Under the pieces are notes generated by a model that was not told the origin of the DNA, made no database searches, and saw only the letters and a list, made by a program, of their open reading frames with translations. From Siphonodentalium dalli (Eukaryota; Mollusca; Scaphopoda; Gadilida; Siphonodentaliidae): 64,000 nucleotides of DNA. The position numbers and the translations under genes were made by a program. The stretch lies in assembly GCA_032622095.1 (NCBI GenBank), contig CP136066.1, positions 167,038,664 through 167,102,663 on the forward strand, given 5' to 3'. Positions within the stretch are counted from its first letter, which is position 1; every line of letters begins with the position of its first letter. Of the stretch, positions 19,879 to 61,562 are shown piece after piece.

Positions 19879-20126
19879 TCACACTGATACTGTTTTGTGG
19901 TGAGATCTCTTGTCTTCAGTTTCATGGTGAGGATTTTCGTCGTCGTCGTCTTCACCAATGATGAGAATTATTGCAGAGAACCACAGCATGAAGTGAAGAC
20001 CGATGAGGAATATACTAAGAGTTGCATATGTTCGCGACATCACCATTCTCCGCCGGTGGTACATAATGCTATGAATGTGAGCTATGCTTCCCCATGTTAG
20101 ACTAAGAGTACCGACCATGAAAGCAG
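19879..20126 (-). CDS. Membrane-protein gene, terminal exon D
   Basis: The acceptor CATTCTGTTTCAG sits just before 20126. It encodes AAFMVGTLSLTWGSIAHIHS, a basic loop YHRRRMVM, the hydrophobic TYATLSIFLIGLHFMLWF and the acidic tail ending KTVSV-stop. A TTAA element begins 26-30 nt upstream of the acceptor. A degenerate one begins about 8 nt after the stop, so the 3' UTR is transposon-derived. Confidence 0.75.
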
Positions 20127-23100
20127 CTGAAACAGAATGGAGGTATTAACCCTTTACCCAACAGAAGGGCCCTGTGCCAATGCATTCTCTTATATATGCG
20201 AGTCGACCATAGGTCGCCTCGCATATATAAGAGAATGCATTGGCTTAACACATTAAAAATTATAAAATTGTTAAAGAATGTAAGAAAAAGTGTTAAAAAA
20301 GATTTTTTTTTAGGCCAATGCATTCTCTTATATATGCGAGGCGACCTATGGTCGACTCGCATATATAAGAGAATGCATTGGCACAGGGCATAACTGTAAC
20401 TATCACAATGTGGTCAAGGAGCCGGTTCCAATGATACCCATATTTGTATGGTTCTATTGAGACAGACCGAAGATATTTTAGGCTGTTGAAGCTTTATTTG
20501 GCCGGTTTGTTGGGTAAAGGGTTAATTAATTTCACCCAGTTCTAATTAAAATTAGACTCTCGAACAAGCTATGCACTACATAGTCTAAAAGATTACACTA
20601 TCGTTCATATTACTGCTGCTATAAATAGCTTCTACATGTAAACCTGACAGTATGATGTCACAGCGCTAGTTTTTTGTAAATAACAAACCAGTTTGTTGAA
20701 TTTATTGGAAAAACTTCTATTCTCATTGCTAGGTATTATTGGTCAATTCTGGACACTTCACATACACTTTTTATTGTTAAATTAGTTGTCGTAATCTCTT
20801 AAATTTGTAAAGACTGTGAAATCATCAATGTGACCAAAAATTTATTGTACTATTTTTAGCTTTGTGGTGATTCGACATGTCACTGTATAGGAATTTCAAC
20901 AATCACCTTGGATTAACTGGTTTGCTGCTAAATATCCTACATGCACATAATGAAATGCGTATATATATATATATTACAATAAACAGAAAATCATTGAATT
21001 TTATGCCTGGAGTAGATAATTTACTACATTTGCACTCTTTTATCAAATTTGACCACCACATACATGTATATACATTTGTGATTACGTTATGAGCCTGGAT
21101 GTCTCATTAAGCTATGGTTATGAGCCTGGATGTCTCATTAGGCTATGGTTATGAGCCGGGTGTCTCATTAGGCTATGGTTATGATGCTGGATCTCTCATT
21201 AGGCTATGGTTATGAAGTGGTTAGAAGTACCTTTTCTGACAATTCTATTGGTCGGCATCCACACAAACTTCAAAATGTCCCAATCTAATTATATATGAAA
21301 CAATATTTCAAAAATATTACTGGACAAACTCTATTTAAATGATTAAACTAAAGAAGCAATAGAGTGTCGTCGCCAAAGCCCAGATATCCTCTCAAGATAA
21401 GCTTCCAGCACACTTACGTTGGGTCCAAATATGGGCTTTCAGCACTGGACCAATTAATCGCTTTATCGTTAAATGTTGTGATTGGCCGACACTGACGTAA
21501 TGCTTCTTGGAAGTAATGGAATTCCCTGCTATTTTGTTTAGACTCTGTAATGCGTAGCTTGGTCAAAAGTCTAATTTTATTTAGAACTGAATTTCACCAT
21601 GTTGTAATCATATTAAGATACAAGCCTGCAAATAGTGTGTCTGTCATTTGTAGAATGAGGTCCCAAGAGGGTGCAATCTGGGAAGTATCTATAGTCTCAA
21701 ATTAGCATTGTTTTAGTTAATTTTTCCCTTCTGGGAAGTTTCTATATCTCATAATTTGCAGAATCGAGGTGAATAATGCTGAACATCACCAAATTCAACT
21801 GGGGAACATCAGTCTCCAATAGGTCTCCCATAGCAGTTGAGGCCTAAGCAGAATGAGGGTGAATTTGGTGATGCTAGCCCACCATTGAGGATAGCGTCAC
21901 TAAATTCACCCTCTGTGGACCTCATTCTGCAAAAGACACACTATTTGTAGGCCTGTTAAGATAGAAACTATGTGTCACTGTAACTCATTCAGCACAAAAC
22001 CTCCACCAATTACATTGCCCAGCGGCCAGCTCCATGATAGCATTATATAATCATATTAGTGTCAGTCAGCAACCAATTAGTGAGCAATTTTTTATGACTG
22101 ATTTTTAACCCTTTCAGTGCCAAGTCCGATTTTTGTATCAACCCATATTTCCTTGATCATTTTTCAAATTTATTGATTATAATAATGTGATACATTGATG
22201 GAAAGAGCTTTAAGAGCTCTTTCCATCAATGTATCACATTATTATAATCAATAAATTTGAAAAATGATCAAGGAAATATGGGTTGATACAAAAATCGGTC
22301 TTGGCACTGAAAGGGTTAAGTACTGTTTGCCACACCTGATGGTTTCTATCACCATCAATTGATACTCTAGTGTTCCAAAAAATGTGCCGTCCCATTTAAA
22401 CGTGCGGTCCCATATAAACGTGCGGTCCCATATAAACGTGCAGGGTGAAAATCCTGATAAAATTTAACAAGAGGTACGCTGTCGCGTGGCATTTGCCCCC
22501 GACTGTAGCAATTCGGATTAAAGGGACTCAAAAATAATCGCCACCATGTTGTTGTTGTTGAAATCAGCTGTTTACTGCCTGTTCCTAACGCTTCTATAAA
22601 CTGCATGCATGGTTTATCTCCCCTGATACAGCCTGATATGCTATAAATAGATTGGGGATATCCCTGTGTTCTGTCAAGCATGGTTTCACTGTCAGGATAT
22701 CGTTAGAAAAAGACTGAGATATATTGAGCTTAAATTGGCAAAATGCGATCAAATAAGAAGTTTTCGTAAGCGGGAAGACGACGAAAAATTGGAAAGAGCA
22801 ACGAATAGTGTGTGTCTTCCGCCGTGGTGGATTTTGAATGGGGATTTCCTTGCAAATCTGCGGAGCAAAAGTTAAAGAGTTGCACATACTTCTGAGTGTG
22901 ACTTGATGTGGTACTAGACAACAGGTATTTATCTGGTGGGTCCGCTTCGTAAATTATAAAATTTTGCTATAAATATATTTTTGAGAATTTTTTTGTGGAA
23001 TTACATATCACTTGACCTACATAACTTATATTTGTCAGATTCGAAATATCAATATAAAATTCAAAAATAAATACACCAACATTATAATTTATAATGGAAC

Positions 23101-29100: not shown

Positions 29101-32100
29101 GGAATCTTATTAAGAACATTCCTTATTATACGCATAACCGCAATACATCCTTATTGCGCTTAAGTGCAATTAATATCTCCCTCATGAGAAAATAGTAGAA
29201 TTATCCTATATTTGCCTGTTAACAGGGATAGAATCTGATGGAATCTGAATAGGCCTACACGTGGACAGTCACCATGTGACCAATAAACTCCACCCATTGC
29301 ACCATGGACTACACTATTGGAATTATAGGGAGTTTATGTAATATTCCTTATTTGCGCTTAAGCGCAATAAGGAATATTCTTATTGCACTTAGCCCAATAA
29401 GGAAATTCCTTATTGCGCTTAAACGCAATAAGGAATCTCTTATTGTGCTTAAGGGCAATTAGATTTTTACTTATTGCGCTAATAAGGGATTCCTTATTGC
29501 GATTAAGCTCAATTATTTATTAAATGTCAATTTGGCATCCCACAATACTGGGCCACACATTTTGAAATTAGTTATTTTAATACTACAGGTCACTGTTGGA
29601 GACTTTAGTTCAATTTGAATCTGCAAGGCCTGTACTAGTGTAGGCCTACTGCGGCCAGTCCAGTCCAAAGACATACATGTAAATTTTAGTGTCAAATTGC
29701 ACTTGCTACATGTACATTTTTCTGACGCTATCTACCCACACTGGTTTTTTTAAATCTGCGTGTTTGAACGATAGGTTCTCCAAAGGTTCCCATTAATTGT
29801 GACCTGAGTCACTCTCCTGTGTCATCAGGATGAGAATTCCCGCTGTTGACAATATTCAATTAGAATGTCAACATGCAACATAGCCTGATCTGATCACACG
29901 AACTTCAATTCGAACCGAGTTTTTGACAATTTTCCAGGCAATAATCGTTGATTTCATATGTGAGGACCCAACATTCCCATTCAACACAACATACACGGAG
30001 ATAAAACTCCGGTAATCTAACTCAAATATGCGTTCTAACTAATTAAGTTTTAATTAATTTATTTGGTCTTGAGAATGAGAGTTATTATTCTCAAAACAAT
30101 CGTATCAAATTGGTGACGAAAGATCGCCGACCAATCGGATCGCGCGGATTGGAATTGTGGCTAAAAATAGTTATCTGCGGGATTCCGCCGTATATATATA
30201 TGTTATTGCTTCAGTCAATCGGGGTATACCGGGGAAGATTGTTGTGTCACTTTAAGCATGGACGAAACTGCGGATATCTGAGGAGGTATATATGACCATT
30301 CCAAAAGAAGTTCGTACTAGAAATTCCGGAAACCCAAAAAGAAGCGATCCGGAAACCCAAAAACAAGCGAAAATTCAAATTTTCTAAGTTGAAAAAAGGG
30401 CCATAACTATGGCAAAAATCATCAGATCATACCCAAATCGCACTTGACATGTATTTTCATATAACTGATCCACAAAAATACGGGATTTGCAATTGTATCA
30501 CCAAAGCTCACGCTATCATCTGGAAACCAAAAAAAACAAGAGAAAAATTCAATTTTCTAAGTAAAAAAATGTCCATAACTATGATGAAAATGGGTGGACG
30601 AAACTCGCGCTATGCATGTAGCTGTTCCCCCATGCTGCTCTATGACCATACCAAATATCAGCTAAATCTGCCCAGCGGTTGCTGAACAATAATGCTAAAT
30701 GTTTGTACGGACGGACAAAATTGAAATTTTCTAAGTTGAAAAAAGGGCCATAACTCTGGCAAAAATCATCAGATCATACCCAAATTCGCACTTGACATGT
30801 ATTTTCATATAACTGGTCCACAAAAATACGGGATTTGCAATCGTACCACCAAAGCTCACGCTATCATCTGGAAACCCAAAAAACAAGAGAAAAATTGAAT
30901 TTTCTAAGTCATATAAGGGCCATAACTCTGGTGAAAATGGGTGGACGAAACCCGCGCTATGCATGTAGCTGTTCCCCCACGCTGCTCTATCACCATACCA
31001 AATAACAGCTAAATCTGCAAAGCGGTTGCTGAACAATAATGCAAAATGTTTGTACGTACGGACGGAGACGTCGACTATATACCCGCCGACTTCAAGTCGG
31101 GGGCATAATAAATGTGCAGACCCGAATAATCATGCAGGGAAGTACAGTTCGAAACCATTATAAGTTGGGATCGAGAAATTGCCTGGAATGTGCATAAACA
31201 CACACCTGCGTTTCCGCAAGGGCTCAACCTATCCAGTCTGAGATGGTTTCAGTGTCCCTCTATAGCACAGTTGTCAAAACAAACATGACATCTTGAGTAA
31301 AATCACAAGCTTGATCCAGGTATGTATACATGTGGTATCAATACTAGTCATGCAAATTGTGTCATTATGTAAAGCCATCTATTACAGATTGAAAACAAGA
31401 AACGTCATGGCACACTCCATATAAGGTACATGTATGTGTTACGCTTTAGGTTGCATTGAAAATAAAATCTCTCTGTTGTGTGTGTTAACGGATACGGATG
31501 CATCGCAGTCATCTGAATGCCTTGGTGTTGATGACTCTATTACATGTACAGTGAGAGCTTTCCGATGAATGGCAACAAGCCATATTTCCAACTAAATCCT
31601 GAAAAATTACCCATAATTCTGATGTGGTTAAGGAGTCAATTATTTTGGGCATTACTGTACATACTCATTGATGAGTAATTCCCTTATGAAATGTTCAGAT
31701 AATAAGTTCAATAAACAACAGAACTTAATATCTGAACATTTCCCTCCAATGAATATGTATCTTTTCCCTTGTCTGTTGTCTGCTTTTATTACCTGAACAT
31801 CCCTCCAAATGAATAATAGACCATTCCGATGTAGACTTTTTATAAATGAATGGGAGAATCCATTTAGTATAGAAAGGGTTAAAACTTACCATAAATAGCA
31901 TATTGTAAGCTGGGGCTGCCGCCGACATAGTGCATCTGCAACGACATGGTGACACCAACTCCCGTGGCCAGGTAAGCGTTCCTACACCAGGACAGGTAAC
32001 CTAAACCAGACAAACAAATAAATAACTCTAGAACAGAAAACCCGAACAAAACGATTGAACACTACATTGAATGTGTATAGTAATGAACATCCAGTAATGC

Positions 32101-40370: not shown

Positions 40371-40641
40371 ATGAACAGGCTTGTGTATCATTCGGGACAA
40401 ATGTCCAGGAGCCTTTTAAAGAATTTTTCACCTTTGAATGCTATGCGATTTTCTGTTGACACTGGAAGTAAAGACTACATCGAAAAATTGGTGACCTCAA
40501 CACCGGTTGTTGTGTTTATGAAAGGGGACCCGGATTCGCCAAATTGTGGATTCAGCAATGCCGTTGTACAAATTCTAAAAGCTCATGGAGTGGAAAAATA
40601 TCAGTCATATGACATTCTGTCAGATGAAAATCTGCGGCAAG
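40371..40641 (+). CDS. GLRX5: GLRX5 exon 1 (presequence and CGFS motif)
   Basis: 90 codons plus one base. It contains the catalytic CGFS and ends at LRQ-G. The intron begins GTGCTTGAAT, a weak donor; within 45 nt it enters a palindromic ACTAGT/ACCGGT microsatellite. Confidence 0.94.
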
Positions 40642-43600: not shown

Positions 43601-44031
43601 CAGTATACGCGATGTGTCCGTTTTACACGGAAATGAATTGGTTTACACAGAAAATAAAATCGGATACCTACTAATTTTGCAAAATCAATAAAATGAAAAT
43701 GGTCGGGGGCACCGGAATAGGGACGGGTTGGTCACCAGAAACACAGGTCTATTTTATTTTGGCCTAAGAGAATGCACTGACACATGATCTATAATGCTGC
43801 ACCAGCGCAGCTCCCGTCATGAAATGGTTAATAATAGGTTTTAAAACATCTATTTCAGGAGTGAAGGAGTATTCCAACTGGCCAACATACCCACAAGTGT
43901 ATATGAATGGTGAGTTTCTAGGAGGCTGTGACATCATGTTGGATATGCATAAAAATGGCGAACTCTGTGACGAACTGAAAAAAGTTGGCATAACATCAAA
44001 ACTCTCAGAAGAAAGTACTGACGGAAAATGA
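40371..44031 (+). CDS. GLRX5: Mitochondrial monothiol glutaredoxin 5
   Basis: Complete two-exon gene: 40371-40641 and 43859-44031, spliced after CAA G|GTGCTT and before TATTTCAG|GA, giving 147 residues. Residues 1 to about 35 carry Arg/Lys and Ser with almost no acidic residues, as expected of a mitochondrial presequence. The glutaredoxin fold follows, with the cluster-binding motif CGFS in [20 protein letters not shown], the glutathione-binding [16 protein letters not shown], and GGCD. The family holds and hands on [2Fe-2S] clusters, using the CGFS Cys plus glutathione, for mitochondrial iron-sulfur assembly. Length and intron position suit animal GLRX5. The 3.2-kb intron carries an intact hAT element and a TTAA element that ends 27 nt before the acceptor. 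The start is the first ATG of the frame. Confidence 0.96.
40684..40755. repeat. Palindromic ACTAGT/ACCGGT microsatellite
   Basis: About 70 bp of CTA/GTA trinucleotides with two GTACCGGTAC cores, self-complementary, starting about 45 nt after the GLRX5 exon 1 donor. Confidence 0.85.
40883..41838 (-). mobile_element. hAT element, family 1, copy 2 (956 bp), in the GLRX5 intron
   Basis: An inverted, nearly full-length copy of 2260-3205. Perfect 8-bp target duplication, CACGGTCC, at 40875-40882 and 41839-41846. It differs from copy 1 at relatively few positions by eye, so both may be young. The 104-codon ORF across it (40976-41290) has no transposase motif. Confidence 0.92.
41850..43220. other. 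GLRX5 intron, no further gene seen
   Basis: GATCAAACCAGCTGCCGCAG-type sequence at 41880-42000 forms an imperfect inverted repeat. 42640-42780 is mirrored inside the element at 43226 (GAGCAAAGTTGAAAATAAAA, GTCACCAGAAACACAGGT). No exon. Confidence 0.4.
43226..43831. mobile_element. TTAA-flanked element ending 27 nt before GLRX5 exon 2 (606 bp)
   Basis: TTAACCCTTTCATGACTGGA at the left, CTCCCGTCATGAAATGGTTAA at the right. One palindrome module at 43275-43335, then ~430 bp of inserted sequence shared inverted with 42640-42780. Confidence 0.7.
43859..44031 (+). CDS. GLRX5: GLRX5 exon 2 (glutathione-binding C-terminal half)
   Basis: The acceptor TATTTCAG ends at 43858. It encodes [39 protein letters not shown] and a short polar tail, with stop TGA at 44029-44031. 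Confidence 0.95.
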
Positions 44032-44507: not shown

Positions 44508-44513
44508 AATAAA
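44508..44513 (+). terminator. Possible polyadenylation signal of GLRX5
   Basis: The first clear AATAAA after the GLRX5 stop, 477 nt downstream, in sequence without a recognised repeat. Confidence 0.35.
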
Positions 44514-46750: not shown

Positions 46751-47037
46751 TTAATAATATTTATGTTTTTTTTGCTCCGGACATGCCCAACAATGACAAA
46801 CATTTTGACAATTAGGGCAGCCTTTAATACAATACTCGAAGAGTCGGTGGATCCTCTCTGATTCCTTATATTCCCGGAACTGTAGATAGTCTTTCAAAAC
46901 AGATGGAATGTTCAGCTGCTCAACTCCAGATTTCGGAACACATTTGCATTGAGCCATATGCAAAACGATAGATCTTCTACTGAGATGCTTCAATGTCATG
47001 GATGACTCTGAAAGATGCTTCAATGTCATGGATGACT
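46751..47037 (-). CDS. ASB gene, terminal exon with SOCS box
   Basis: Encodes ESSMTLKHLS twice in tandem, then RRSIVLHMAQCKCVPKSG, LNIPSVLKDYLQF and a Cys-rich tail (CIKGCPNCQNVCHCWACP) ending KKHKYY-stop. TLKHLSRRSI is the BC box; its usual Cys is Ser. The 30-bp duplication contains its own CTTTCAG acceptor, so splicing at 47037 or 47007 stays in frame and differs by ten residues. Confidence 0.85.
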
Positions 47038-50000
47038 CTGAAAGATGGAATGGAGAATGGTTTAACCCTTTTATGATGTTAGCTGCACTGGTGCAGCATT
47101 AACCCTTCCATGACTGGAGCTTCCTGAAATTTTGCGAAAACCCTGTGCCAATTCATTATCTTATATATGCGAGTCTCCCATAGGGAGCCTTACATATATA
47201 AGAGAATGAATTGGCCTAACAATATCTTGATCAAGTTCGAAAACTGACCAGGTCCACACATTTTGGGCAGAGATCAAGTCCTTAATTTAGTTCATATTAG
47301 TGAATTCATTTTGATCACGATAGCATCGCCATCTGCACGAGCCTTAACCCTTTGAACCTTGACGTCCTGAACGTTATATGGCCCCAACCCGAGGCGCCTT
47401 ACATTATATACAGTGTTCCGACGACGTAACTCATAATGCTCTTAACTGGGACATATATACATGTATACACGCTCAACTATACACTAACTGAACTGGTTTG
47501 CGATACAACGGGACATTATATTACACGTTCAATATACATGTAGATTATATTGCCGCTTCCTTTGGTCGCGCTATATATTTATAACGAAATTCTTATCCTT
47601 TGCCTACGATAAAAGGCATTTCTCAAAATGCGCCAAGAAACAAGACCCCCTGTTTCCAATTTAGCTGCTAAAGTCAGAGGTATGATTGTGACTCATTCGC
47701 GCAAAGTAGAAGCACAATTCTAGTTAATTTGGGCTTTGATCGCGAAATTTCTAACAAAACACTTCCCCTTTACCGACGATAAAAAGCAATCTTTTTTCTC
47801 ACAATAGTCCTCTGCGCATGAGCGAAGAAACAGACCCTCTATCATCAGTTTGTCTATCAAAGTCATGTGTGTAAACATGTGACGCGTGTGTGCAAAGTAG
47901 AAGTACAACTCTAGTTGATATGTGCGTTTATTGTGCTGTAATTTCGTGTCAAATATCGTCTGATTTCCGAACCGGTATTCCAGTCTCCCGAGATATAGGA
48001 ATATGAAAGTGTCAATGACACTGTAGCTCAACTTAGGTAAGGGAATAATTTAATGGTTGACAGTAAATGGAGGAATAGGAAAGGTGCTAATTGAAATGTC
48101 TAACCTACATGTAGCTGTGCCAAAGGATTTAGTCATGCAAAGAGTAAAATCCAAGATGGCTGCTGGCGGCCATGTTTTTTGGCTGAATGACCTCAAAATG
48201 ACTCGTTCCCATCTACATGTCATTGTTAACATCCATGACAAATTTCATGAAGATCCGACTAAAGCTACGACCGGCAGCACGCGCCAAAGGATTTAGTCAT
48301 GTATAGAGTAAAATCCAAGATGGCTGCTGGCGGCCATGTTTTTTGGCCGAACGACCCCAAAATGACTCGTTCCCATCTACATTTCAATATTAACCTCCAT
48401 GACAAATTTCATGATTATCAGTCGAATAGTACGACCTGTAGCCCGCACCAATGGATTTAATTTTGAAATCCAAGATGGCCTCCAGTGGCCATGTTTTTTG
48501 GCTGAATAACCTCAAAAGGACTCGTTCCCGTCTACATGTCATTGTTAACATCCATGACAAATTTTATGAAGATCCGACTAAAGCTACGACCTGTAGCCCG
48601 CGCCAAAGGATTTAGTCATGCAAAGAGTAAAATCCAAGTTGGCTGCTGACGGCCATGTTTTTTGGCCGAACGACCCCAAAATGACTCGTTCCAATCTACA
48701 TGTCATTGTTAACATCCATGACAAATTTCATGAAGTTCCGACCAAAGCTACGACCTGTAGCCCGCACCCAAGTATTTAGTCATGTAAAGAGTAAACTCCA
48801 AGATGGCAGCTGGCGGCCATGTTTTTTGGCCCCAAAATGACTCGTTCCCATCTACATGTCAATATTAACATCCATGACAAGTTTCATGATGATCAGACGA
48901 ACAGTACAACCTGTAGCCCGCGCCAATTAATTGAATTTTAAAATCCAAGATGGCCGCCAGCAGCCATGTTTTTTGGCCAAATGGCCCCAAAATGACTCGT
49001 TCCCGTCTACATGTCATTGTTAACATCCATGACAAATTTTATGAAGATCCGACCAAAGCTACGACCTGTAAGCCCGCGCCAAAGTATTTAGTCATGCAAA
49101 GAGTAAAATCCAAGATGGCTGCTGGCGGCCATGTTTTTTGACCGAACGACCCCAAAAAGACTCGTTCCCATCTGCATGTCATTGTTAACATCCATGACAA
49201 ATTTCATGAAGATCCGACTAAGCTACGACCTGTAGCCGCGCCAAAGGAAATTGTTGACGGACGATGGATGCCAACCCATGGCAATAGCTCAAACTTACAA
49301 AGTAAGTTGAGCTAATAAGGATTGGACCGCTATTCCGGTCTCTCGGGTTCAAAGGGTTAAATTGGACTATAGTCAATACCACTGAGGCTTTCAGATGGAT
49401 GAGTTGCATCTGGTGTGCTAACGTGACCAACAATAAATTTAGTTTACTCAACTGAATGGAATGAAATTTAGTATGTGAGTTTACTAGCCCAAATACAGGT
49501 CAAGTTCGAATATGGGTTCCGCCTGCCAATTATGGGCATTGGCCCTTTTTGTTGGAATTTGTACTCAATTTTCATTTCCGGATGATAACTCCAGTAATGG
49601 CCCTTTGTTTGAATTACCACGGCGTATTTTGCCACGCCCTAGCGATACTCTTGTTTTGAATCCAATGCATATTTTATATTTTTATTGTTCACACATGTCA
49701 GCTCATGCTGTGATGTTGAGAAAATTATCATCTCCATCATCTGTCGCCATAGTGATTATACTTCTATTGGTGACATAAGATCTTCTTGTTTTCAAAATAA
49801 GATTCAGAAGTGAGACTTCAAAAGGTTTGGCAAAGTCACAAAATCAGGGCCAGGAAAATACATCACTAATGTAATCTCACCATCGCTTCAGAAGTTTGGA
49901 TAGCTGCTATCTACAGTAATGCCCTAAATAATCGACTCCTTAACCACAGCAGAATTATGGTTAACTATTCAGGATTTAGTCGGAAATATGGCTTGTTGGT

Positions 50001-53000
50001 TAAGGAGTCGATTATTTAGGGCATTACTGTATGTAGTGGTTCAGCTAGATATTTGTTGCAGAAGTTATGGTACTTACGAGTGAAAAGGGATATCGTTGGC
50101 GCGATTCGAAGAGGTAATAAGTGGTTTTGGCACGAAATTTTTTATTGTAGATTCGGAATCAGCGGACTCAATTAGATCGGGTATATTAAACCCAAATATC
50201 CAATCAGAAGTGTGATTTTTTCGACATGTGACAAAAATTCATAAATCTGATTGGCGGAAAAATCCTGATCGAAAACGACGTAAACATACAACATTTTTAA
50301 GGAACCATCTGAGTCATGGAGTCGTGGATATCGGATTTAAAAGGCATTCCCATTATATCACCCCAATGAGATTTGATAAAACCAAAATGACAGGCGCGTA
50401 CACAAACTTGTACATGCACATTCAAGCACAACCTCCGTAAAGTGGCATCAATTGTTAATTATTTACACAAAAAAACATCGTAAAACATGGAAAAAATGAA
50501 AATCGCCGACTCAAAATTGTCGTAAATAAGTTGGAATCAGTTTTTTGTCTCCTGAACAATTGCTAATTTGACTAACGACCACTTCGAATCGAACAAACGC
50601 TATCTGAGGAGTCGAAGACACCTGACCAGAAAAGCTTCTATCAATTAATACTGATTTTATATCAATATTTTCTTATATATAATCAGATATAATGTGAAAA
50701 TTAAGAGGGAAATTTTTTTGTTTCTATTTTTAGATAGTTATCCCGCATATTACGCTCCGAATGAATGCGAGACATAACATGTCCCAAATTGATTGTATGT
50801 ATATTATACCAGAAAATTCTAAATAAAATCAATATCAGTTGAAAGAAGCTTTTCCAGACAGGGGTCTTCGATTTCATATTTATTATTTTATACCCATAAA
50901 CTACGGTATATACAACTTGTTATAGGAAGAGATAGACCATCTTCAAATGGTTGAGGTATGTTTGTTTTTCGAAATCGGGAAACAATCAATATCTAATTTC
51001 CTTATAAATTTCAGTTATAAATGAGTTTTCATCGTTAACTGATTTTTGAATGTGTGTTGTGACTTTCCACAACTCATACACTAGTTTATCAGTCAGACAA
51101 ATGTTTACACGTGTTTGGGTTAGAGACTTGATTTGTGACGTAGGTTCTTGGCCGTGAAAATTTAAGTTTGGCTTGAGAATATTTAAACAATACCTGTTGC
51201 TATGGCAATTGAAGAGCAATACAGTTTCTTCTGTATGATTTGATCATAAACTTTTTCCTCGATATCAAACTTGTTGCTAAGGAGAACGATAAGAATCAGG
51301 ATGAAGTACTCGGCATCCTTCTCGTTGTATGGCGATGCGGACATCTGCATGATATCCCAACTGCTGAATTTTGTCTTCATTTCTCCTCCTGCTATTAACA
51401 CTAACAACAGGTACTTTCCAAAATACCATGAATAATCATAGTTAAGATTGTTATTACATGTAGCTACCAATGCTAAATTAACTATAACATTTCCTTGAAT
51501 ATTGTCATGATAAAGCGTCACGTTGGAACCAGCATCTATAAGAAGTTTGCATAGTGGCCACAGTCTGTGACTCAAAGCTGTCATTAGGGCAGTGATTTCG
51601 TTGCCTTTGGGTCGGAGGTCATATTCATTATCTAGCATAAATTTCATGACCCACAAATAATATTCCATTCTTTCCACTGCGAGTGCACTTGACTTTATAG
51701 TGATATCAAGAATATTGATGAAAGGATGCTTGAACGAACACGGAAAATCAGCTAACTCGTCAAAATTGTCTCTCAGTTCATGTCCTAAAATGTTGATATC
51801 AGTATCTACTGTGTGTTCCAGTTTCCATTTGTCGATCGTAACACCAGCGGACAAAAGGAATCTTGGTATTCGTGAGTTCAAAGTTGAATATGCAATGTAA
51901 AGTGGATGTAAATTCTCATCGCAATTAAGAAGTACGCTGATATCTGTAACAGGAGGTTTCAAAAGTTTGGCACATCTGAAAAAAGATAATACAAATTGTC
52001 AGTCACTTTAAAGGCTCACTTAATTTTCGAACCCCCAGATCACATTATATAAAATATATGCCATATTATATACCATCTGAAAGTGAACTGTGAACATGTT
52101 GTTTTTGTTGAGGTACTGATTTGTTTTCTGCGCTAAAGTTTCATCTGGACTTGCAGTGCAAAGTCTATTATTTTCAATGGAAGGGGAATAATATATCTTA
52201 GTTTGAATTATGTTGCATTCTGGGAGCCAAATGGGGGGACATGTTTCTATGAAATCAGCTATTTTCTATTACTCTATGGGCACCTTCAGAGACACAGATA
52301 TTCCAAATGGTGATGTATTATAGTATTTTAATCATATTTTATGTCATAGACTAAAACCGTATATCAAGGCACTATAAAAAATAATAATCAGTGACTACAG
52401 AATTAAGTGGGCCTTTAATGATGGTCTACCTTATCTTATAACATTGATTGATTGATTGGGGTTTATTGTCGCTTTAGCAACTAAGGCCATATCACGACAT
52501 TGCCAGTTTTAGTGGTGGAGGAAATCCGCACACTTGCGACTAATCTAACAGTGATTTCAATGGCTGATAGACTCGTCAACCATGTGCGGCAAACCACCGG
52601 CCATCGGCGAGTAACTGGCAACTCCACCAGATAACAATTTCGAGTTACAAAGTCCACGATGGAAACATGTGGATTTGAACCCTTATCGCCAGTGCTGGAG
52701 GGCGAAACGGCTTGGAGTGGTACCCCTAACCGATTGAGCCACCGAGGCCCCGTATCTTATAACAAGATTATTTGTTTGCATCCTGATGTTTTTATAAATA
52801 CAGTAATGCCCTAAATAATCGACTCCTTAACCACAGCAGAATTATGGGTAACTTTTCAGGATTTATTTGGAAATATGGCTTGTTGCCATTCATCAGAAAG
52901 CTCTCAGAGTTATGGCCCTTTTTATTGGAATTTGCACTCAATTTTCATTTCAGGATGATAACTTTAGTAAAGTCTGAACTGAATGAAATGAAATTCGGTA

Positions 53001-56000
53001 TGTGAGTTTACCAGCCCAAAATACAGGTCAAGAATTTGTTCCGCCCACCAATTTATACCAGAGTTATGGCCCTTTGTTGAAATTACCACAGGCGTATTTT
53101 GCCATGCCCTAGTGATGCTCTTGTTAATTCCTCAAGAAAAATATTGGTCAATCATTTCCAATTAATTGTATTTATAAATAGTGGCATTTTATAAGGGTTA
53201 AACTTACTCAAAGTTTGATTTATATATGGCATAATTCAGAGGCGCAGCATTAAATACTTTCAGCGTGAGATTGGCATCGGCTCCATATCTAAGCAACAGT
53301 TTGATGCATTTTTTATGGCCGTTTTGTGCAGCAAGTAACAGTGGTGAGGCTGAGTCTTCAGCAGGATGGTCAACTATGTCTCGGTGCCCTGTAAGAAATG
53401 AGAGATTCTATGGTCAACTATGTCTCTATGCCCTGTAAGAAATGAGATATTCTATGGTCAACTATGTCTCTGTGCCCTGTAAGAAATGAGAGATTCTATG
53501 GTCAACTAGTATGGCCCAGAAACACACTGTCAAAAGGATGGTCTCGGTCAAAATTGCTGATGAAGATGGATAACTCTAAAAACAAGTGTAATACGGCCAC
53601 TTCATGAAATTTGGCCATATTACCACTGATTACTCTGAGCTTTGGTGGGTTCCTCGACTCGAATCAAATATTTTTTACCCCCGAAGACAACGAAAGTAAT
53701 TGAGGAGCATCTGATCAGATTGAGTACCTTTAAACTTTTTGCCCAGAAGTGAAACAAATGCTCTTTATTTCTAACATTATCAGGAATAGACTAACATGGA
53801 ATGCTCGTTTCTATTCCATGACATCTGTTTTTTGTTTGGGACACAAACATCATGTTTAAAGTTTTATTTTTTATGACTTCAATGCATGTTTCAGTAACAT
53901 AAAATGTTCATTTAAAGTTAGTATAAGTATTTATCGACCTATTTCAATACCGGAAAAAATTTAAAAGCGAATATTATTGGCTTTATTTTGGGACTCAAAC
54001 AGGCAGCCTTGTATTGATAACAAATTCATCATTTGTGACAGTATAGGCAGATCCTCCGGTGCTTATAAGCTTAACCCTTTCTTGACTTAGTAATCATTGA
54101 CGAGTAGTTCCCTTAGGAAATGTTCAGATAACCCTGCCATGACTGGAGCTTCCTGAAATTTTGCAAAAACCCTGTTCCAATAGATTCTTAAATATGCGAG
54201 TCTCCATAGGGTGCCTCAAATATATCAGAGTGCATTGGCCTAACAATATTTAGTGTAACTTAACCTTGTGAGCCAGTGCATTCTCTTATTTAGTGTAACT
54301 TAACCTTGTGAGCCAGTGCATTCTCTTATAAATGTGAGGCTCCCTATGGGAATCTCGCATATATAAGAGAATGCACTGGCACAGGATGTTTATTGCTGCA
54401 TCTGTGCAGATCCCATCATGAAAGGGTAAATAAAGACTGTATGTAAGTATTCCACTTATTTATTAAAGTTATGTGGAGCACTCAACCGGTGTGAACAAAT
54501 AGGAATACACAATAATCTTGTTTAATGTATTTATTTTCACATCCAAGCAAGCATGGATTTAGTGTGTCTGACATTTGCAGAATGAGTTTCCCAGAGGGTG
54601 ACTTCAGTGATGCTAGCCCACTTTGTGGGATAGCATAATTAAATGTACCCTCTGGGAACCCCATTATGCTTAGGCCTCAACTACTAGGCCTCAAGACCTA
54701 GGATCAAACTGAAGTTCCCCAGTTAAAGTTGGTGATGTATACATGTTCACCCATTAGTCACCTCGATTATGCATTTTATCTTCTGCAAATTAGGGGATAT
54801 AGAAACTTCCCAGAAGGGAAAAAGTAACAAAAAACAATGTTAAATTATAGATACTTCCCAGAAGATGAGGACTAAGCAGAATGAGGTCCCCATTCTGCAT
54901 CCAAGTTGGCAATATATGCAGTAAGTAGTGTTCAGACAAATCCGTTGCGTTTGTCCGTACATTGCAATGACATGATCCATTGTCTGTGTTAAATGGTTCA
55001 TACATGTGCATGCATTGCATTATAACGCAGAGCTTCCGATTGATAATAATTGAAGCTAATAAGTTCATTATTGGAATAAATGCAATATTGCAAACAATCC
55101 TTGAAATAGTGTGTCTGTCATTTGCAGAATGAGGTCCCCAGAGGGTGAATTTGGTGATGCTAGCCCGCTATGCGCGGTAGCATCACTAAATTCACCCTCT
55201 GGGGACCTCATTCTGCAAATGACAGACACACTATTTCAAGGCTTGTACAAGTTGATTTTCCTTCGAATACAGCCGCCATCTTTCACAGAAAACGCTACAG
55301 TATTTATAGTCTTGAAATCAGATTTTATAAAAATTATGTTGTTGTAATTGTGGCCCAGAAGAGATAAGACCATTTTTCCTGGGGAGGACGACCTAATAAG
55401 CAGTCTCTTTGAAAAGCCGATGATAATCCTAACGGATTTACATCTCTAGAAGTGTCCATTATATTTCATTTCTACGACGATGCGGCATTCGCAAAATGAT
55501 GTAATAAACCGTTTCCAAATATGGATTGCATGAATATCGTTGACTGATAATAACTTGAAGATGATGTCTCCTATATTGCGATGAGTAAAATGAATTATGG
55601 ATATAGCCTGTATTCAGTTTTCCAACAATAGTTGAGTTTGAAAATGCGTGGGAAAATTGTCAACGCGTCAGTGACCTGAGATCTGTGAAGTGATCTGTTA
55701 TGCCATAAACCAATGAAATCATGCGCAGTCTGCGCCACTCTCCAATGAATGGAGGGAATCCATTCAAAACAGAACTAAATTTTAATAGAGAGTTCTTCAG
55801 ACGTACATCCGATATAAGATCTTCGTCAGCTATTTAATGAGACTGCCTAATTATAAAGAATTTTACCTGTCCGAGAGGCAAATCTGAGTAGGATATATAA
55901 ACACTTGTAGTGACCTCTCTCTGCAGCTAGGAACACTGGACTGAGGTTATGCTCCGTATATACATCAATTCTGGCTCCTTTCGTCAGAAGGTAGTGTGTC

Positions 56001-59000
56001 ATCTGAAGGTTTCCACTTTCCGCAGCCTCATGTAATGGTGTATAACCTAATAACAGATAAGCTAGAAATTTTTTGTGGAAATAATTTGATAGCAAGACAC
56101 TCCAAATATCAGAGAGAAGAGCCTCACTAGGGCATGGTAAAATACGCCCGTGGTATTTCCAACAAAGGGCCATAACTCTGGTAAAAATGTACGGCCGAGC
56201 TACAAATGTAGTTTGTGAACTCATTACAGAAACTCCTCTTGAGAACTCATATACCAAATATCTTTTAAATCCATTGATAATTGTTCAAACGAAATCAATA
56301 CCAGACAACTTTTGCTGGGTGCTAAATGCCAAAAAATGACAAAGGGCCATAACTCTGATGAAAATATCAGGCCAGGCCTAGTTTGCGAAACTGTTTCAGA
56401 TACACATTCCCTTGTGAACTCACATACCAAAAATATATTTTTAATCTGTTGCTGTTCGAAATAACTTATATTTCCTGAACATCCCTCCAGATGACCAATC
56501 AATAGACCAATCCAATGTATACTTTTATAACTAAATAGGAGAATTCATTTTATAAATAAAGGGTGAAGCTTACCTGTATAGAGAGGGACGTTGACATCAG
56601 CACCATGTTTGACCAGCAGTTTGACACTCAGAAGACACCTGCCTCTCACAGCTGGAGAATATACAATCAGTATTTGTGGTCAAATTTGTCTATACACTCG
56701 CTGCGCAATGTGTTTATTTCTTTTGTAATTTGACTATGTTTTCGTCGAAATAGTTGTGACAGACATGCAGATTTTGGATTAAGAAACCTGCATCACAATA
56801 GCAGTCCTTCCCAGGAGATGGGCTCGATTGCTCTCTCACACATTCACACTCGTAATTTTAAATTCACGGGTGCTAAAATTTGCACTCGTCCATCTTGCTT
56901 ATGATGGCTGTAAACAATTCAATGTTGGAACTATTTGAAAGTTTGTTTACCGTTAGATCCTGTCGAGTCTCCATTCAATTATGGGCATGTGAAAGTGTAA
57001 CTGGACAAAATGTCTATCCCACAATGGTGCAATTGCACCCGTTTTTAGAATTGCAAGAGCAAATAAGAGCTCTTGCTGTGTTTTCATCATGGGAAGGACT
57101 GCAATATCCTTGTTTTGACATGATTTGCCACCAAACAGACATATACGAGAATGCACTGGCTTACAAGGTCAAGGTAAATATTGTTAGGCCAATGTATTCC
57201 TTATATATCCGCGGGTCCCTGTAGGAGACTCGCATATATTAGAGAATGCACTGGCACATGATCTTTAATGCTGCACCAGCACAGCTCCCGTCATGGTAGG
57301 GTTAACCAATTCATATGTGGTATTAATTATAAGAGCCTTGTATGCAGGTTTGCGCAAGGTCATATTACAATTTCCCATAAAATTATTTTATTTCTGGGGA
57401 CAATTAACCCTTTGTATACTAAAAACTCATTGGTAAGTAGTTATCCTTTAGGAAATGCTAAGATAATAAATTCAACAAACGACCATAGGTCTGAACATTT
57501 CCCTCCAATAAATTGAACTCCCCCTGTACATGTACTATTTATCTGTCATCTTATTTTTCATGAAAACCCTTCCAGATGAAGAATTGACCATTCCAATGTA
57601 TACTTTTATAACTAAATAGGAGATTCCATTTAGTATAGAAAGGGTTAACCCTTCCTTGTCTGGAGCTTCCTGAAATTTTTGCGAAAACCCTGTGCCATAG
57701 GCGGCCTCGCATATATAAGAGAATGTGTAACAGAACGATGTTTCCATGGACTCTGTTCCTTCACTAGAATCTTCCAAATTATTAAAGGTTAATGAAACCT
57801 AGAGACTATCTAACTTCTATAGTCAGATTATTGTAAAGTACATGTACAGTGTGTACTCCAAACTGGAACAGGGTAAGAACACAAGAAAGTACTTAGTACT
57901 GATGTCCTCTCGTGGGAATGTTGGTCACAAGGAATGGTGAGGTGGATTCCTGCACGTACCTGCGCAATAAGTTATATAAACAATTTATTACATATTGATA
58001 CTTAGTATCATAAGATTGCATAGGTACGTACAGGATGTGATGACAACAATGACGCCAAGTTATTTTAGGCGTGCAAACCATTTGGCCATTCAGGTACAAT
58101 GTACTTTGTGAACCCAGGAAAAATCACAAATGCGACATATGAGTTATGTATTCTGACAGGCCCCAGTTTAAACATATGTCACTTGCTATTGCAAACAAAA
58201 TTGACCATTCCCTATAAATACTGGACCAGAATTCTGGATCCAGTATGTGTGTTTTCGGACATTCCAGTCATACATCCTCACCATGTATTTACTTCTGTAG
58301 GACACGTCGTCACAGAATAAACACTCTAACTAGAGATCGTTGTCTTTGATATATAGTAACCCAGAAGAATACACAATGAGAAGCAAAGAAGGAAACCAAA
58401 GGACAGGGTAAAAACGCCCAGGGACTCTGCTACAAATGCATTGGCCTAACAATATTCACCTTGACCGTGTAAGCCAGTGCATTCTCTTATTTATGCGAGG
58501 CTCCCTATAGTAGAGTCGCATTTGTAAGAGAATGCACTTGCATATTATCTTTAATGCTGGACCAGCGCAGCTCCCGTCATGAACGGGTTAACCCTTTCAG
58601 TGCCAAGTTCGATTTTTGTATCAACCCATATTTCCCATATAATCTCTTTCCATCAATGTATCACATTATTATAATCAATAAATTTGAAAAATGATCAAGG
58701 AAATATGGGTTGATACAAAAATCGGACTTGGCACTGAAAGGGTTAAGAGAGAGGAGTACCTTCATATAGTGGTGAGTATCCTTCTGGAGTAGACAGGTTG
58801 GAGTTGGCACCAGCATCTAAGAGGATGTGAATACATTCCCGGTTTCTCTCACGAGCTGCGATTATTAAAGCTGTGTCACCATTGAAGGCTTCCCAGTTAG
58901 GATCTGTATCATCTACAAGTGAAGTGAGAAAAACAGGTAACTATTATCCCTTTCTTTACTGAAGTTCAATTCTCAGTTCCAAGCCGGTGTGTGTTTGCAT

Positions 59001-61562
59001 TCCCAATGCTGTGAGGACACGTATATAGTAAAATAAAATGTCCTCACAATGTTTAAAAACGTTTTCCCTTTAAGGCAACAAATATGTACTTTTTGTACGC
59101 ATGTTTTCTAGAGGGTACACCAAGTTGGGCATATTTAACGAAATAACGAGGTCCTCACAACTACGGTATTGTTTGAATTTCTAAAGAAATGTACCCACAA
59201 CGTATACAATACAAACAAGGGTGTGTGTCTGCCATTTTCAGAATAATATCCCCAGAGGGTGATCAAAAACGTGTAGACCTTAGGCTTCAGGGTAAAAAAT
59301 ATCAGATCTGAGTCGAGGAAAACCCACCCATCATAGCCCAGAGTAATAAGATTTTGAAACTGTTATTTTCACCATCTCGAATATTTGGCGGCCTGGCAAA
59401 TATTCAACGAATACCAACCGACATACTCTCGATACCAAATTATGTTGACAAAATGTTAATATTTAACACTTTTTGGAAATATTATACTATAGTTGACAGT
59501 GGTTTGCATTATATTTTGGCAATTAATCGATTCGGCATTTCAAGAAATGTTGTTGTTGTTGGAATCTGATTATATGGGGACCATCAAATCAGATTGAGTA
59601 CATTTAAGATAATGCAATATACCTTTTCCAGATGTCACAGGTTATTCCATTTCCGATGACTTCAAATGTAGTGCAGGTATTTATCAACCTATTTTGTTAC
59701 CGGGAAAAATTCAAATGCAAATATTATTATAAGGTGTATTTAGAGTGCAAATGTGGCTTTAACCCTTCCATGACTGGAGCTTTTTGCAAAAACCCTGTGC
59801 CATTGCATTCTCTTATATATGTCAGTCTCCAATAGGGTGCCTCGCATATATAAGAGAATACATTGGCCTAACAATATTTACCTTGACCATGTAAGCCAGT
59901 CCATTCTCTTATATATGCGCAGCTCCAGTCATGAAAGGGTTAAGGTTTGATTACCCACCTTCTTTCAGAAGAATTTGCAAACACTTCGGTTTATTCTGGT
60001 GACAACAGTGGTGTGTTGGCCTCCATCCTTGTGTATCTTTCTCGTCAATAGTTGCACCTGGATTTAGTATTAAAAGTTACATTTAAAACCCTTACATGAC
60101 GGGAGCTGCATTGGTGCAGCATTAAAGATCCTGTGCCAATACATTCTCTTATATAATATGCGAGTCTCCCATATGGAAAATAGAAATATATGGAAATATA
60201 ATCTTCTTACATTATTTTTAACCCTTTCTATTCTAAATGGATTCTCCCATTCAGTTTAGAAGTATGCATTGGACTGATCTATTATTCATTTGGATAGGTA
60301 TCAGCCCACAAAATTAACAACAGCAATGCCGTAGATAAAGCCATACAATCTACAAACATCTATGCAGAAGACAGCAACTATACACTACTTGATATACAAT
60401 ATTTGTTATATGCTTACCTATATAAAAATAGAAGAAAATTACGAAATGTAAATCTTGTATGTACCTCTTAGAAGCTACTGTGAAATAATTCATTGTAGCT
60501 TTTTGTTATTTCACTGTAGCTTGCCGAATGATGTCGTGACGTCATCACTTGAAAGTGGTTTGCTACATATGGCTCGCTCATGAAAATCTGATATTTCTTT
60601 CCAGAGACACTCATGAGATAATACGGTATTCAAATAAAAACTGTAGGTACATGTATTCTCTATATTTTCTAAATTAAGGATTATAAAATAATTTTAATTC
60701 CACACAAGCATCAAGTCATGCATCTAATAAATAACTAGCAATATTTTCGTTATTTTGCTGACAAAGTTGAGTCATTTCCACCAAATCAATCACATCAATA
60801 ATGCTATTGAAATTCTTCTGTCTTGGTCATCAACTTCCCACAGGCATGTGTCACAGATTAAAGCATTGGAATAGATATCTACATTGTAACAGTGAATTGA
60901 CAATAACCGATTGTTATCACATTATTCTCAAGTGTCAATCATCATTGACTGTCTGACAAACGAATTTGAAGATAAGATGTATTTAAAATTTGGAATGTAG
61001 CTGGGTGTAATCCCCTTTCTGGTGCAATGCCGTAGATGTCAATTTTATCTACGTTAATGTACTGCCATAGAAGAAAATTGCCAATTTCAAGGGCTGCATG
61101 TATTCAGAAAAAATTAGCATACGACAGAAAAGATAATAGAAGTACAGAAGGATTACATTTTCAGATAATAAGTTCAACAAAACAACCTATGGTCATTTGT
61201 TGAATATATTGTCTGAACATTTCCTAAGGAAACTACATGTACTTGTCAATGAGTATGTAGTACAGAAATGGATTCAATAACTTGATTTTATAAATCTAAC
61301 ACACTGAATTTGTATAAAAAATGTTCAGGGACGGGTTGACGCTTGGGTGAGTTTATACATGTATCATAACTCTGCTATGGGGAATTTTGTGTCGGCCTAG
61401 GATATATAACTGGCATTGCTGGCTGTGGTACGTTGCTATTATATGACTGGCATAAAATAAACACCTTTTGCGAGTAGCTTCCGTAATTGGTCACAGTTTA
61501 TATCATCCTTCTTCAAATGAGTTATGAGACAGGGTACTTCTGATTTTTTCTTTGCCTTTTTC
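46751..61562 (-). CDS. Ankyrin-repeat and SOCS-box protein (ASB3-like), last eight exons
   Basis: Exons, in minus-strand order: 61562-61465, 60057-59959, 58912-58760, 56651-56574, 56046-55867, 53388-53208, 51975-51194 and 47037-46751. All seven joins keep one frame, giving about 618 residues. A lysine-rich start (KKAKKKSEV) leads into ankyrin repeats such as WEAFNGDTALIIAARE, GYTPLHEAAESGN, LSPVFLAAERGHYKC and ASPLLLAAQNGHKKC. A long diverged region (51194-51975) and a C-terminal SOCS box follow. ASB proteins are substrate receptors of Elongin B/C-Cullin-5 ubiquitin ligases, and the ankyrin part chooses the target. The order and the long diverged region resemble vertebrate ASB3. The start codon is beyond 61562. 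The BC-box Cys is Ser and the Cul5-box LPxP is LNIP, so ligase assembly may be altered. Introns are packed with TTAA elements close to the splice sites. Confidence 0.92.
46978..47040 (-). repeat. 30-bp tandem duplication spanning the SOCS-exon acceptor
   Basis: AGTCATCCATGACATTGAAG + CATCTTTCAG occurs twice in a row on the minus strand, so there are two CTTTCAG|AGTCATCC acceptors 30 nt apart, both in frame. Confidence 0.9.
47062..47220. mobile_element. TTAA-family element abutting the SOCS exon
   Basis: TTAACCCTTTTATGATG at 47062, a second TTAACCCTTCCATGACTGGA start at 47099, then a palindrome module at 47149-47215. Looks like one copy truncated by or joined to another. TTAA lies about 24 nt before the acceptor. 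Confidence 0.6.
47344..49360. mobile_element. TTAA-flanked element carrying a satellite array (2,017 bp)
   Basis: TTAACCCTTTGAACCTTGAC at the left, CTCTCGGGTTCAAAGGGTTAA-type end at the right. 47590-47960 holds two diverged copies of a ~155-bp unit (CGATAAAAGGCATTTCTC, GCGCAAAGTAGAAGCACAAT). 48080-49245 is the satellite described separately. ORFs here (47720-48296, 48950-49141) are not gene-like. Confidence 0.7.
48080..49245 (+). repeat. Higher-order tandem array, seven units of 155-164 bp (A-A-B-A-A-B-A)
   Basis: The unit contains AAATCCAAGATGGCTGCTGG, CGGCCATGTTTTTTGGC, AATGACTCGTTCCCATCTAC and ATCCATGACAAATTTCATGA. Unit starts fall near 48121, 48285, 48449, 48604, 48768, 48923 and 49078. 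Type A has TTTAGTCATGCAAAGAGTAA; type B (third and sixth) has TTTAATTTTGAAATCC instead. Confidence 0.85.
49914..50029. mobile_element. TA-flanked hairpin family, internally deleted copy (116 bp)
   Basis: Both ends present (CAGTAATGCCCTAAAT, GGGCATTACTG) with TA flanks; most of the right arm is deleted. Confidence 0.78.
50640..50945. repeat. Dispersed partly palindromic repeat
   Basis: AGAAAAGCTTCTATCAATTA mirrored by GTTGAAAGAAGCTTTTCC; relatives at 18118-18377 plus 19646-19740 (interrupted by the TTA element) and 25590-25890. Confidence 0.6.
51194..51975 (-). CDS. ASB gene, large exon (diverged ankyrin region)
   Basis: 260 codons, acceptor TTATCTTTTTTCAG, donor CAACAG|GTATTG. It contains recognisable but weak ankyrin helices (HPLYIAYSTLNSRIPRFLLS, TALMTALSHRLWPLCKLLID, YLLLVLIAGGEM). 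It corresponds to the poorly conserved second half of ASB3-like proteins before the SOCS box. It is the longest coding stretch in the window. Confidence 0.9.
52444..52752 (-). mobile_element. tRNA-derived SINE with 12-bp target duplication
   Basis: Minus strand: GGGGCCTCGGTGGCTCAATC then GGTTAGGGG gives an A box (TGGCTCAATCGG). GGTTCAAATCC about 55 nt later is a B box. A ~200-bp unrelated body and an (ATCA)n tail follow. TATCTTATAACA flanks it at 52432-52443 and 52753-52764. It is intact in the ASB intron between exons 51975 and 53208. Confidence 0.9.
52801..52906. repeat. Single arm of the TA-flanked hairpin family
   Basis: CAGTAATGCCCTAAATAATC to CATTCATCAGAAAGCTCTC, then a junction into a GGCCATAACT-type repeat. 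Confidence 0.75.
53208..53388 (-). CDS. ASB gene, ankyrin exon with a triplicated acceptor
   Basis: Encodes HRDIVDHPAEDSASPLLLAA, QNGHKKCIKLLLRYGADANL and a diverged tail YAIYKSNFE. The acceptor and first ~25 coding bases recur twice upstream (see 53362-53510). The donor GAGTAAGT is followed directly by TTAACCC of a transposon. Confidence 0.9.
53362..53510 (-). repeat. Triplicated splice acceptor of the ASB ankyrin exon
   Basis: A ~56-bp unit (GGTCAACTATGTCTC.GTGC, CCTGTAAGAAATGAGAGATT, CTAT on the plus strand) occurs three times. Each contains, on the minus strand, CATTTCTTACAG|GGCA and ~25 coding bases. Confidence 0.88.
54071..54430. mobile_element. Two abutting TTAA-family copies
   Basis: TTAACCCTTTCTTGACTTAG at 54071 begins one family but breaks off at the GTTCAGATAA motif. 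CCATGACTGGAGCTTCCTGA begins a second, with palindrome modules near 54170-54240 and 54275-54375, ending CATGAAAGGGTAA. A 48-bp segment (TTTAGTGTAACTTAACCTTG) is tandemly repeated. Confidence 0.6.
54540..55245. mobile_element. Family-2 hAT copies: decayed (54556-54895) and hairpin (55095-55245)
   Basis: 55095-55245 is a 151-bp foldback copy (CTTGAAATAGTGTGTCTGTC mirrored) inserted in the 14150-type repeat; its target duplication is lost. 54556-54895 is an older, inverted relative of 62395-62695. Confidence 0.7.
55867..56046 (-). CDS. ASB gene, two-repeat ankyrin exon
   Basis: Encodes YTPLHEAAESGNLQMTHYLL, TKGARIDVYTEH and LSPVFLAAERGHYKCLYILL. It has the clearest consensus ankyrin repeats of the gene (TPLHxAA, GA-ID). 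Confidence 0.92.
56574..56651 (-). CDS. ASB gene, short ankyrin exon
   Basis: 26 codons: VRGRCLLSVKLLVKHGADVN then VPLYT. This is half an ankyrin repeat that continues in the next exon. The donor is ACAG|GTAAGC, immediately followed by a decayed TTAA element end (TTCACCCTTT). Confidence 0.88.
57414..57648. mobile_element. TTAA-flanked element (235 bp)
   Basis: TTAACCCTTTGTATACTAAA at the left mirrors TTTAGTATAGAAAGGGTTAA at the right. The right TTAA (57645-57648) also starts the next element, TTAACCCTTCCTTGTCTGGA, truncated near 57728. Confidence 0.82.
58432..58746. mobile_element. Two TTAA elements sharing one TTAA
   Basis: A truncated palindrome-module copy ends at TTAA 58588-58591, and a 159-bp internally deleted copy of the 22105 hairpin family starts at the same TTAA and ends at 58743-58746. 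The latter end is 13 nt from the ASB exon at 58760. Confidence 0.78.
58760..58912 (-). CDS. ASB gene, ankyrin exon
   Basis: Encodes DTDPNWEAFNGDTALIIAAR through ILLDAGANSN and PEGYSPLYE. Acceptor CACTTCACTTGTAG, donor GAAG|GTACTC. A TTAA element ends 13 nt after the exon. Confidence 0.9.
59759..59943. mobile_element. TTAA-flanked element abutting an ASB exon (185 bp)
   Basis: TTAACCCTTCCATGACTGGA at the left, GCTCCAGTCATGAAAGGGTTAA-type end at the right. One full palindrome module (59803-59866) and half of another. Confidence 0.8.
59959..60057 (-). CDS. ASB gene, ankyrin exon
   Basis: Encodes ATIDEKDTQGWRPTHHCCHQ and NKPKCLQILLKE, an ankyrin repeat with the usual GW-P-H opening. Phase 1 on both sides. 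Transposon ends lie 14 nt after the donor and about 25 nt before the acceptor. Confidence 0.88.
61465..61562 (-). CDS. ASB gene, first exon in window
   Basis: Acceptor TTATTTTGTAG, donor AAAAG|GTGTTT. It encodes KKAKKKSEVPCLITHLKK then DDINCDQLRKLLAKG, the first helix pair of the ankyrin stack behind a basic patch. Confidence 0.82.

Follow-up and report, generated by a model that had tools for sequence, protein, structure and literature searches.

The window analysed here is a 64,000-nucleotide (nt) stretch of contig CP136066.1 (positions 167,038,664 to 167,102,663 of the forward strand, contig C6 in our numbering) of the scaphopod Siphonodentalium dalli, whose assembly (GCA_032622095.1) comprises 2,226,750,531 bases in 9 contigs. 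It carries predicted genes with introns that hold short elements ending in TTAACCC, and the positions of these ends relative to the exons are the subject of this analysis. At 6 of the 13 splice donors in the window an end lies 6-15 nt into the intron, and at 5 of the 15 acceptors one lies 19-31 nt before the exon, giving near ends at 11 of 28 splice edges. The initial annotation had described such ends at about nine of two dozen edges; the near ends were confirmed, while the count was revised, with two decayed acceptor ends (acceptors 60058 and 58913) added. The exon-edge placement extends outside the window, as genome-wide counts at donor motifs indicate.

Genes and element ends in the window

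The following genes provide the splice edges.

290..6427, plus strand: guanylate cyclase, C-terminal part (Pfam Guanylate_cyc on one exon, remaining exons by eye)
19879..35831, minus strand: small membrane-protein gene (only a weak NDUF_B8 match, E-value 0.012, below the cut-off)
40359..44030, plus strand: glutaredoxin-5-like gene with two exons and one intron (Pfam Glutaredoxin in both exons)
46751..61562, minus strand: large ankyrin-repeat/SOCS-box (ASB-like) gene (Pfam Ank and SOCS_box, frame continuity)

Ten frames of the window, all host-gene candidates, were searched with Pfam, and the exon edges of the ankyrin/SOCS-box and glutaredoxin genes are predictions from reading-frame continuity across introns and Pfam matches. 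Of the ankyrin/SOCS-box splice edges in the window, four of seven donors and three of eight acceptors have a near end. No element end was found within 150 nt of the 3 donors and 4 acceptors of the guanylate cyclase gene, the closest at its donors, which is also the next nearest at any donor of the window, being 158 nt away. In the membrane-protein gene the phases of exons 1 and 2 fail to join in our reading, and an exon between them may be absent from the model. The single glutaredoxin intron presumably has a counterpart at the matching position of human GLRX5. The guanylate cyclase gene also contains, at 3561, an apparent GC-AG intron, the exon ending in ATGG and the intron beginning with GCAAGT.

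The element families start TTAACCCTTT and comprise A to D and minor ones, with ends reading CATGACTGGAGC or CATGACGGGAGC (family A, F1), CTATACTAAATGG (family B, F2-type), CAGTGCCAAGTCC (family C, F3) and ACCCAACAAACCGG (family D, F4). A scan of both strands with ten family-end strings gave 54 rows; removal of 54097, 56591, 57584 and 61275 and the addition by eye of 53201 left 51 ends, among them one at 31647 that belongs to another repeat (Z) adjoining a family B element, is no true TTAACCC end and is distant from acceptors. Thirteen elements were listed, at 142-606 bp all under the size needed for a piggyBac-type transposase. TTAA flanks both ends in nine of these, as expected of a target-site duplication, one end being decayed or missing in the other four, and in nine of the 13 the terminal inverted repeats, of TTAACCCTTT type and in agreement with CC[C/T]T, are identical at 18-20 of 20 terminal bases. 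The elements thus look like piggyBac-type miniature inverted-repeat transposable elements (MITEs) of several families, residing inside long ordinary introns. Predicted piggyBac transposases with open frames are abundant in the genome: PF13843 gave 128 matches from 116 of 649 scored candidates genome-wide, many with frames of 500-720 amino acids, and these are at most candidates for moving elements with TTAACCCTTT ends. Kolobok and KolobokP elements, the latter rich in bivalves, likewise duplicate TTAA (PMC9587614), but the part of that source available to us gives their termini as 5'-RR...YY-3', whereas the elements here begin CCC and end GGG, and a Kolobok MITE was rejected for this reason. 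Scans of viral and bacterial-archaeal sequence collections returned no such element ends.

At donors, where distance is the number of intron bases preceding TTAA, the near ends are as follows.

53198..53201, minus strand: family B (F2-type) end TTAACCCTT, 6 nt past donor 53207, GTAAGT then TTAACCC; far end not identified
56564..56567, minus strand: family B (F2-type) end decayed to TTCACCC, 6 nt past donor 56573 of the ankyrin/SOCS-box gene; scan score 36
31660..31882, minus strand: family B element, intact end 7 nt past donor 31889 of the membrane-protein gene; far side adjoins a repeat Z end at 31647-31659
35481..35484, minus strand: family A (F1a) end, 8 nt past donor 35492 of the membrane-protein gene; far end not identified
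58588..58746, minus strand: complete 159-bp family C (F3) element with 20/20 terminal bases identical, 13 nt past donor 58759
59759..59943, minus strand: complete 185-bp family A (F1) element, 15 nt past donor 59958

These distances agree with those of the initial annotation at every donor. The family C element at 58588..58746 is probably young, since a 106-nt stretch of it is 99% identical to a copy at 22105.

At acceptors, where distance is the number of bases between TTAA and the exon, five ends are near, the next ones lying 67 and 243 nt away.

20146..20525, plus strand: complete 380-bp family D (F4) element, TTAA 19 nt from the last membrane-protein exon (acceptor 20127, minus strand)
43226..43831, plus strand: complete 606-bp family A element, right TTAA 27 nt before exon 2 (43859; acceptor 43858) of the glutaredoxin-5-like gene
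47062..47065, plus strand: end of a family A (F1b) element 24 nt away from the SOCS-box exon, whose acceptor on the minus strand is 47038; another family A end is at 47099
60085..60217, plus strand: family A element, truncated and delimited by eye, with its decayed end 27 nt from exon 60057 (acceptor 60058, minus strand)
58944..58947, plus strand: decayed family B-like end TTATCCC, 31 nt from exon 58912 (acceptor 58913, minus strand)

The range of 24-30 nt proposed initially for acceptors therefore holds at 43858 and 47038 but is slightly off at 20127. Near ends flank two exons, 60057-59959 and 58912-58760, on both sides. A 30-bp tandem duplication (46978-47046) spans the SOCS-box acceptor and yields two in-frame AG acceptors 30 nt apart; were the second used, the distance at 47038 would be 54 instead of 24. 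A decayed family A end at 19871-19879, a few nt past the membrane-protein stop codon, adjoins another kind of coding-sequence border, and three tandem copies of a 44-bp unit holding the acceptor sequence TTTCTTACAGGGCA precede exon 53388 (53380-53510).

When the ends were placed uniformly within their introns, the expected numbers of near ends were 0.14 at donors (22 donor-facing ends) and 0.27 at acceptors (21 acceptor-facing ends), and six or five, respectively, were never reached in 100,000 draws. Restricting placement to TTAA sites, occupied ones included, raised these means to 0.65 and 0.75, with p = 1e-5 for donors and 3e-4 for acceptors. Two other repeat types had none of their 25 matches within 100 nt of a splice site, versus 11 of 51 TTAACCC ends within 31 nt (Fisher p = 0.013, a value that refers to all 25, of which three sit within family D elements and are doubtful, leaving 0/22).

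Genome-wide counts at donor and acceptor motifs

Pattern searches of the 2.2-Gb genome, which detect GTAAGT donors and perfect TTAACCCTTTC ends only, found 479 pairs at gaps of 0-10 nt, 385 at 20-30 nt (a number inflated by a dispersed repeat, which makes up roughly 10 of 33 rows displayed with letters), 207 at 45-55 nt (17 of 100 among the matches listed forming one cluster) and 201 at 100-110 nt, while the wrong-strand combination of ACTTAC with TTAACCCTTTC at gaps of 0-10 nt occurred 192 times. The excess at donors thus depends on both distance and strand. Tandem arrays contribute to it: among the matches listed, 22 of 100 near pairs stand in clusters, and the clusters examined are arrays of a family B unit. 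Scaling the near count by 78% leaves 374, and the excess over 192 persists (p = 2e-14). Repeat Z, of unassigned class and with TACAGTAATGCCC ends, served as a negative control and showed no strand bias, with 193 near pairs for GTAAGT and 209 for ACTTAC. TTAACCC ends differ from Z in the strand contrast (p = 3e-14 raw, 2e-8 scaled) and exceed it in the near-far contrast (p = 0.0004 raw, 0.013 scaled).

The clusters themselves merit description. Loci L009-L011, L025-L028 and L030-L035 are tandem arrays of an approximately 68-bp family B unit holding GTAAGTTTAACCCTTTC, a satellite derived from a MITE end. Seventeen copies of a single GTAAGT-TTAACCCTTTC pairing, alike in spacing, lie within 0.7 Mb at C2:123.42-124.14 Mb, probably as a gene or repeat cluster.

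Whether the near GTAAGT sites are genuine donors was assessed with a codon score, for which 669 codons from two genes of the window served as training set; it was applied upstream of GTAAGT, and a value of at least 4 counted as a pass. Fifty of the 479 near loci (L009-L058, all on contig C1; 30 supplied by the search itself and 20 that came next among 70 other listed places) and 30 of the 201 far loci were scored, and the removal of 11 and two satellite loci, respectively, left 39 and 28. Eighteen of the 39 near sites passed as opposed to none of the 28 far sites (p = 9e-6), and about 9% of 176 other GTAAGT sites in the fetched loci did so; excluding the satellite loci L009-L011, which were still among the 39, the contrast becomes 18/36 versus 0/28. 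Open frames of at least 20 codons, present at 29 of 36 near and 19 of 28 far loci, were searched with Pfam. The output was alignment-based and without member names, so the number of members involved, here and at acceptors, is our own assignment. Upstream of near sites, 16 families with one member each were found, assigned to 7 of 29 members, while none of the 19 far frames matched (p = 0.03). These families include PI3_PI4_kinase, Helicase_C, MCM_OB, TFIIIC_sub6, LTN1 and several thrombospondin and several WD40-type models, and some of the loci we take, from our own reading of the sequences, to be ATR, MCM2 and SMARCAD1. By the codon score, about half of the non-satellite near matches look like real donors. 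The notion, raised by the initial annotation, that GTAAGTTTAA is a special sequence target is therefore not supported, and a pure sequence target (GTAAGT beside TTAA) was rejected as unlikely; it would act mostly outside genes, where by our estimate, which is not a measurement, most GTAAGT sites lie.

On the acceptor side, GAAAGGGTTAA followed by TTTTCAG was found at 635 places with gaps of 10-30 nt and at 730 with gaps of 110-130 nt. Copies of Z with a TTTTCAG of their own swell both numbers (8 of 20 fetched far loci are such copies). Forty near loci were taken from the first 52 rows listed of the 635 (eight Z rows, one duplicate, two overlapping near-donor loci and one row without a given reason were skipped), and 20 far loci from the first 22 rows of the 730 (one duplicate and one Z row skipped). 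A codon score of at least 4 was reached at 10 of 40 near and 1 of 20 far loci, the latter a Z copy (p = 0.08, or 0.09 without Z rows). Pfam searches of 27 of the 40 near and 14 of the 20 far loci gave seven families, assigned to 4 of 27 near members (SNF, TspO_MBR, immunoglobulin and MBD), and no match among the 14 far ones. A bias at acceptors is likely but unproven, the case being weaker on this side than at donors. An exon near 76,385,500 of contig C1, probably of an SNF (sodium symporter) gene, appears to bear ends on both sides.

Origin of the excess near exons

We consider it reasonably likely that several families of small, probably non-autonomous, TTAA-flanked, piggyBac-like MITEs ending TTAACCCTTT insert preferentially in the intron just outside exons. 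The TTAA used would lie some 6-16 nt downstream of the 5' splice site or, probably, in the last 35 nt or so of the intron, ahead of the 3' splice site; the MITEs would enter already existing introns, and splicing could survive as the element would lie outside the splice signals and the TTAA would be duplicated. Because selection against splice damage would lower the density of elements beside splice sites, an excess there points either to biased insertion or to preferential keeping, and an origin at insertion is favoured since several families are involved (family A by both of its ends, and families B and C, are all found at donors), the ends are perfect and one copy looks young. The initial annotation had favoured targeting or tolerance. 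Targeting is supported at donors by the genome-wide distance and strand controls; tolerance alone is not, as the near-donor density exceeds that deeper in the intron.

According to the tolerance explanation, GTAAGTTTAA intron starts and TTAAY branch points merely supply TTAA sites at which duplication preserves the splice signal. Donor distances that begin at 6 nt, directly past GTAAGT, acceptor distances of 19-31 nt that suit branch points, and gap 0 (GTAAGTTTAA) as the most frequent single gap (17 of 78 isolated pairs among the matches listed) all conform to it. Sparing of insertions cannot, however, lift the density over that of the deeper intron, and near matches not only outnumber far ones but are more often at exons; moreover, the seven unoccupied donors are poor in TTAA, which was found at 1 of 77 positions and is therefore not notably commoner there than within introns (0.84% per base). 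We regard tolerance as the sole cause as unlikely. Much the same applies to a scheme in which ancestral introns were short, so that early TTAA insertions fell near an edge by necessity and later ones lengthened the introns. Nine of the 13 window introns do hold at least one near end, yet only two hold near ends at both sides, the young-looking 58588-58746 copy adjoins the donor of an intron 2.1 kb long, and the pair count is at the far level again by 45-55 nt, where short introns could still match; this history appears improbable to us, if marginally less so than the next.

If insertion were random and copies beside exons simply survived longer, deletions there being harmful or the elements aiding splicing, the same standing pattern could result. 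The excess is seen for perfect TTAACCCTTTC ends and includes the young-looking copy, and repeat Z lacks a strand-specific excess, which leaves preferential keeping with little probability in our view. An introner origin, in which the elements would have made the introns by inserting into exons, has a precedent in DNA-transposon introners with terminal inverted repeats and target-site duplications, some of which derive their two splice sites from the sequence into which they insert (PMC9860276). Here, the splice signals are external to the TTAA, and copies vary in their distance from the splice site, also among members of family A and of family C. Twelve near loci were read out to 900 bases beyond the donor; in these, by eye, and in the window, the intron runs on after the element. 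The far end was located in seven of the 12, about 210-290 bases in (in L016 a second, adjacent element ends at about 600), and by eye no exon follows it in any of these seven. The introner behaviour entertained by the initial annotation was consequently rejected and has, in our estimate, hardly any chance of being correct.

Several points weigh against preferential insertion. The window was chosen for being striking, and 6 of 13 donors is accordingly no genome-wide rate. Of its near ends, that at 53201 lies outside the scan matches, both its position and its assignment to family B being by eye, and that at 58944 has a weak score of 15.5 where shuffled sequence reached 14. Repeat Z is itself commoner near GTAAGT than far from it (193 versus 134, p = 0.001), so that a near-far ratio alone is no proof, and the raw acceptor counts display no near excess. 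Finally, the controls count standing copies and not insertion events, a point in favour of preferential keeping.

For preferential insertion, a cue in the DNA that marks exons fits best, and exon chromatin is perhaps that cue: where the nucleosome covering an exon ends, linker DNA may be accessible, or a chromatin mark of the exon may serve as the signal. In human cells, nucleosomes are reported on exons, with a peak of linker histone H1.5 on the intron side of exon-intron junctions (PMC6614845). A preference for nucleosome linkers is reported for some introners and for many DNA transposons (PMC9860276). A more specific version, which we put forward tentatively and hold to be possible rather than probable, is that a piggyBac-family transposase of this lineage reads exon chromatin, as a nucleosome edge or histone mark, and steers groups of MITEs to exon-flanking intronic base pairs, thereby opening a route to introners.

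Known systems share parts of this behaviour, as far as the sections of the reports available to us allow comparison. Coral CMITEs (PMC2872659) are similar in their TTAA duplication, CCCT-type termini (CCCTTTCCC..., CCCTTTCACTGCCA), short length, several families, tandem arrays and one intron copy, whereas their inner sequences differ and no exon-edge preference is described in those sections. piggyBac also targets TTAA, vectors in mouse cells showing a bias to exon-rich expressed regions (PMC5333637) and traps in Anopheles a bias to first and 5'-untranslated-region introns (PMC6169391), but both biases concern regions, promoters or introns as a whole rather than the 6-16 nt next to a donor. 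Introners (PMC9860276) resemble the present elements as DNA-transposon-like sequences tied to splice sites and are biased to genes and nucleosome linkers; unlike these elements, which long existing introns receive, they create introns. Among the titles and abstract openings listed in searches of open-licence papers for insertion at exon edges, for introners and for elements with TTAA targets, none described such a bias.

An insertion preference precise to some 10 bases around exon edges would, if true, mean that integration machinery can sense the location of exons in DNA. It would also explain how genes load many copies without breakage of splicing, and would constitute a testable step from ordinary transposons toward intron-making introners. 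To our knowledge, descriptions of where transposons prefer to insert usually go no finer than promoters or open chromatin.

Other repeats in the window

Two further repeat structures were observed. Positions 2329-3205 and 40883-41768 hold inverted copies of a longer, recent repeat that are 98-99% alike, each with a TTAACCCTTTCAATACAG-type end, and an inverted-repeat array around CTTATTGCGCTTAAGCGCAATAAGGAA occupies 28472-29462.
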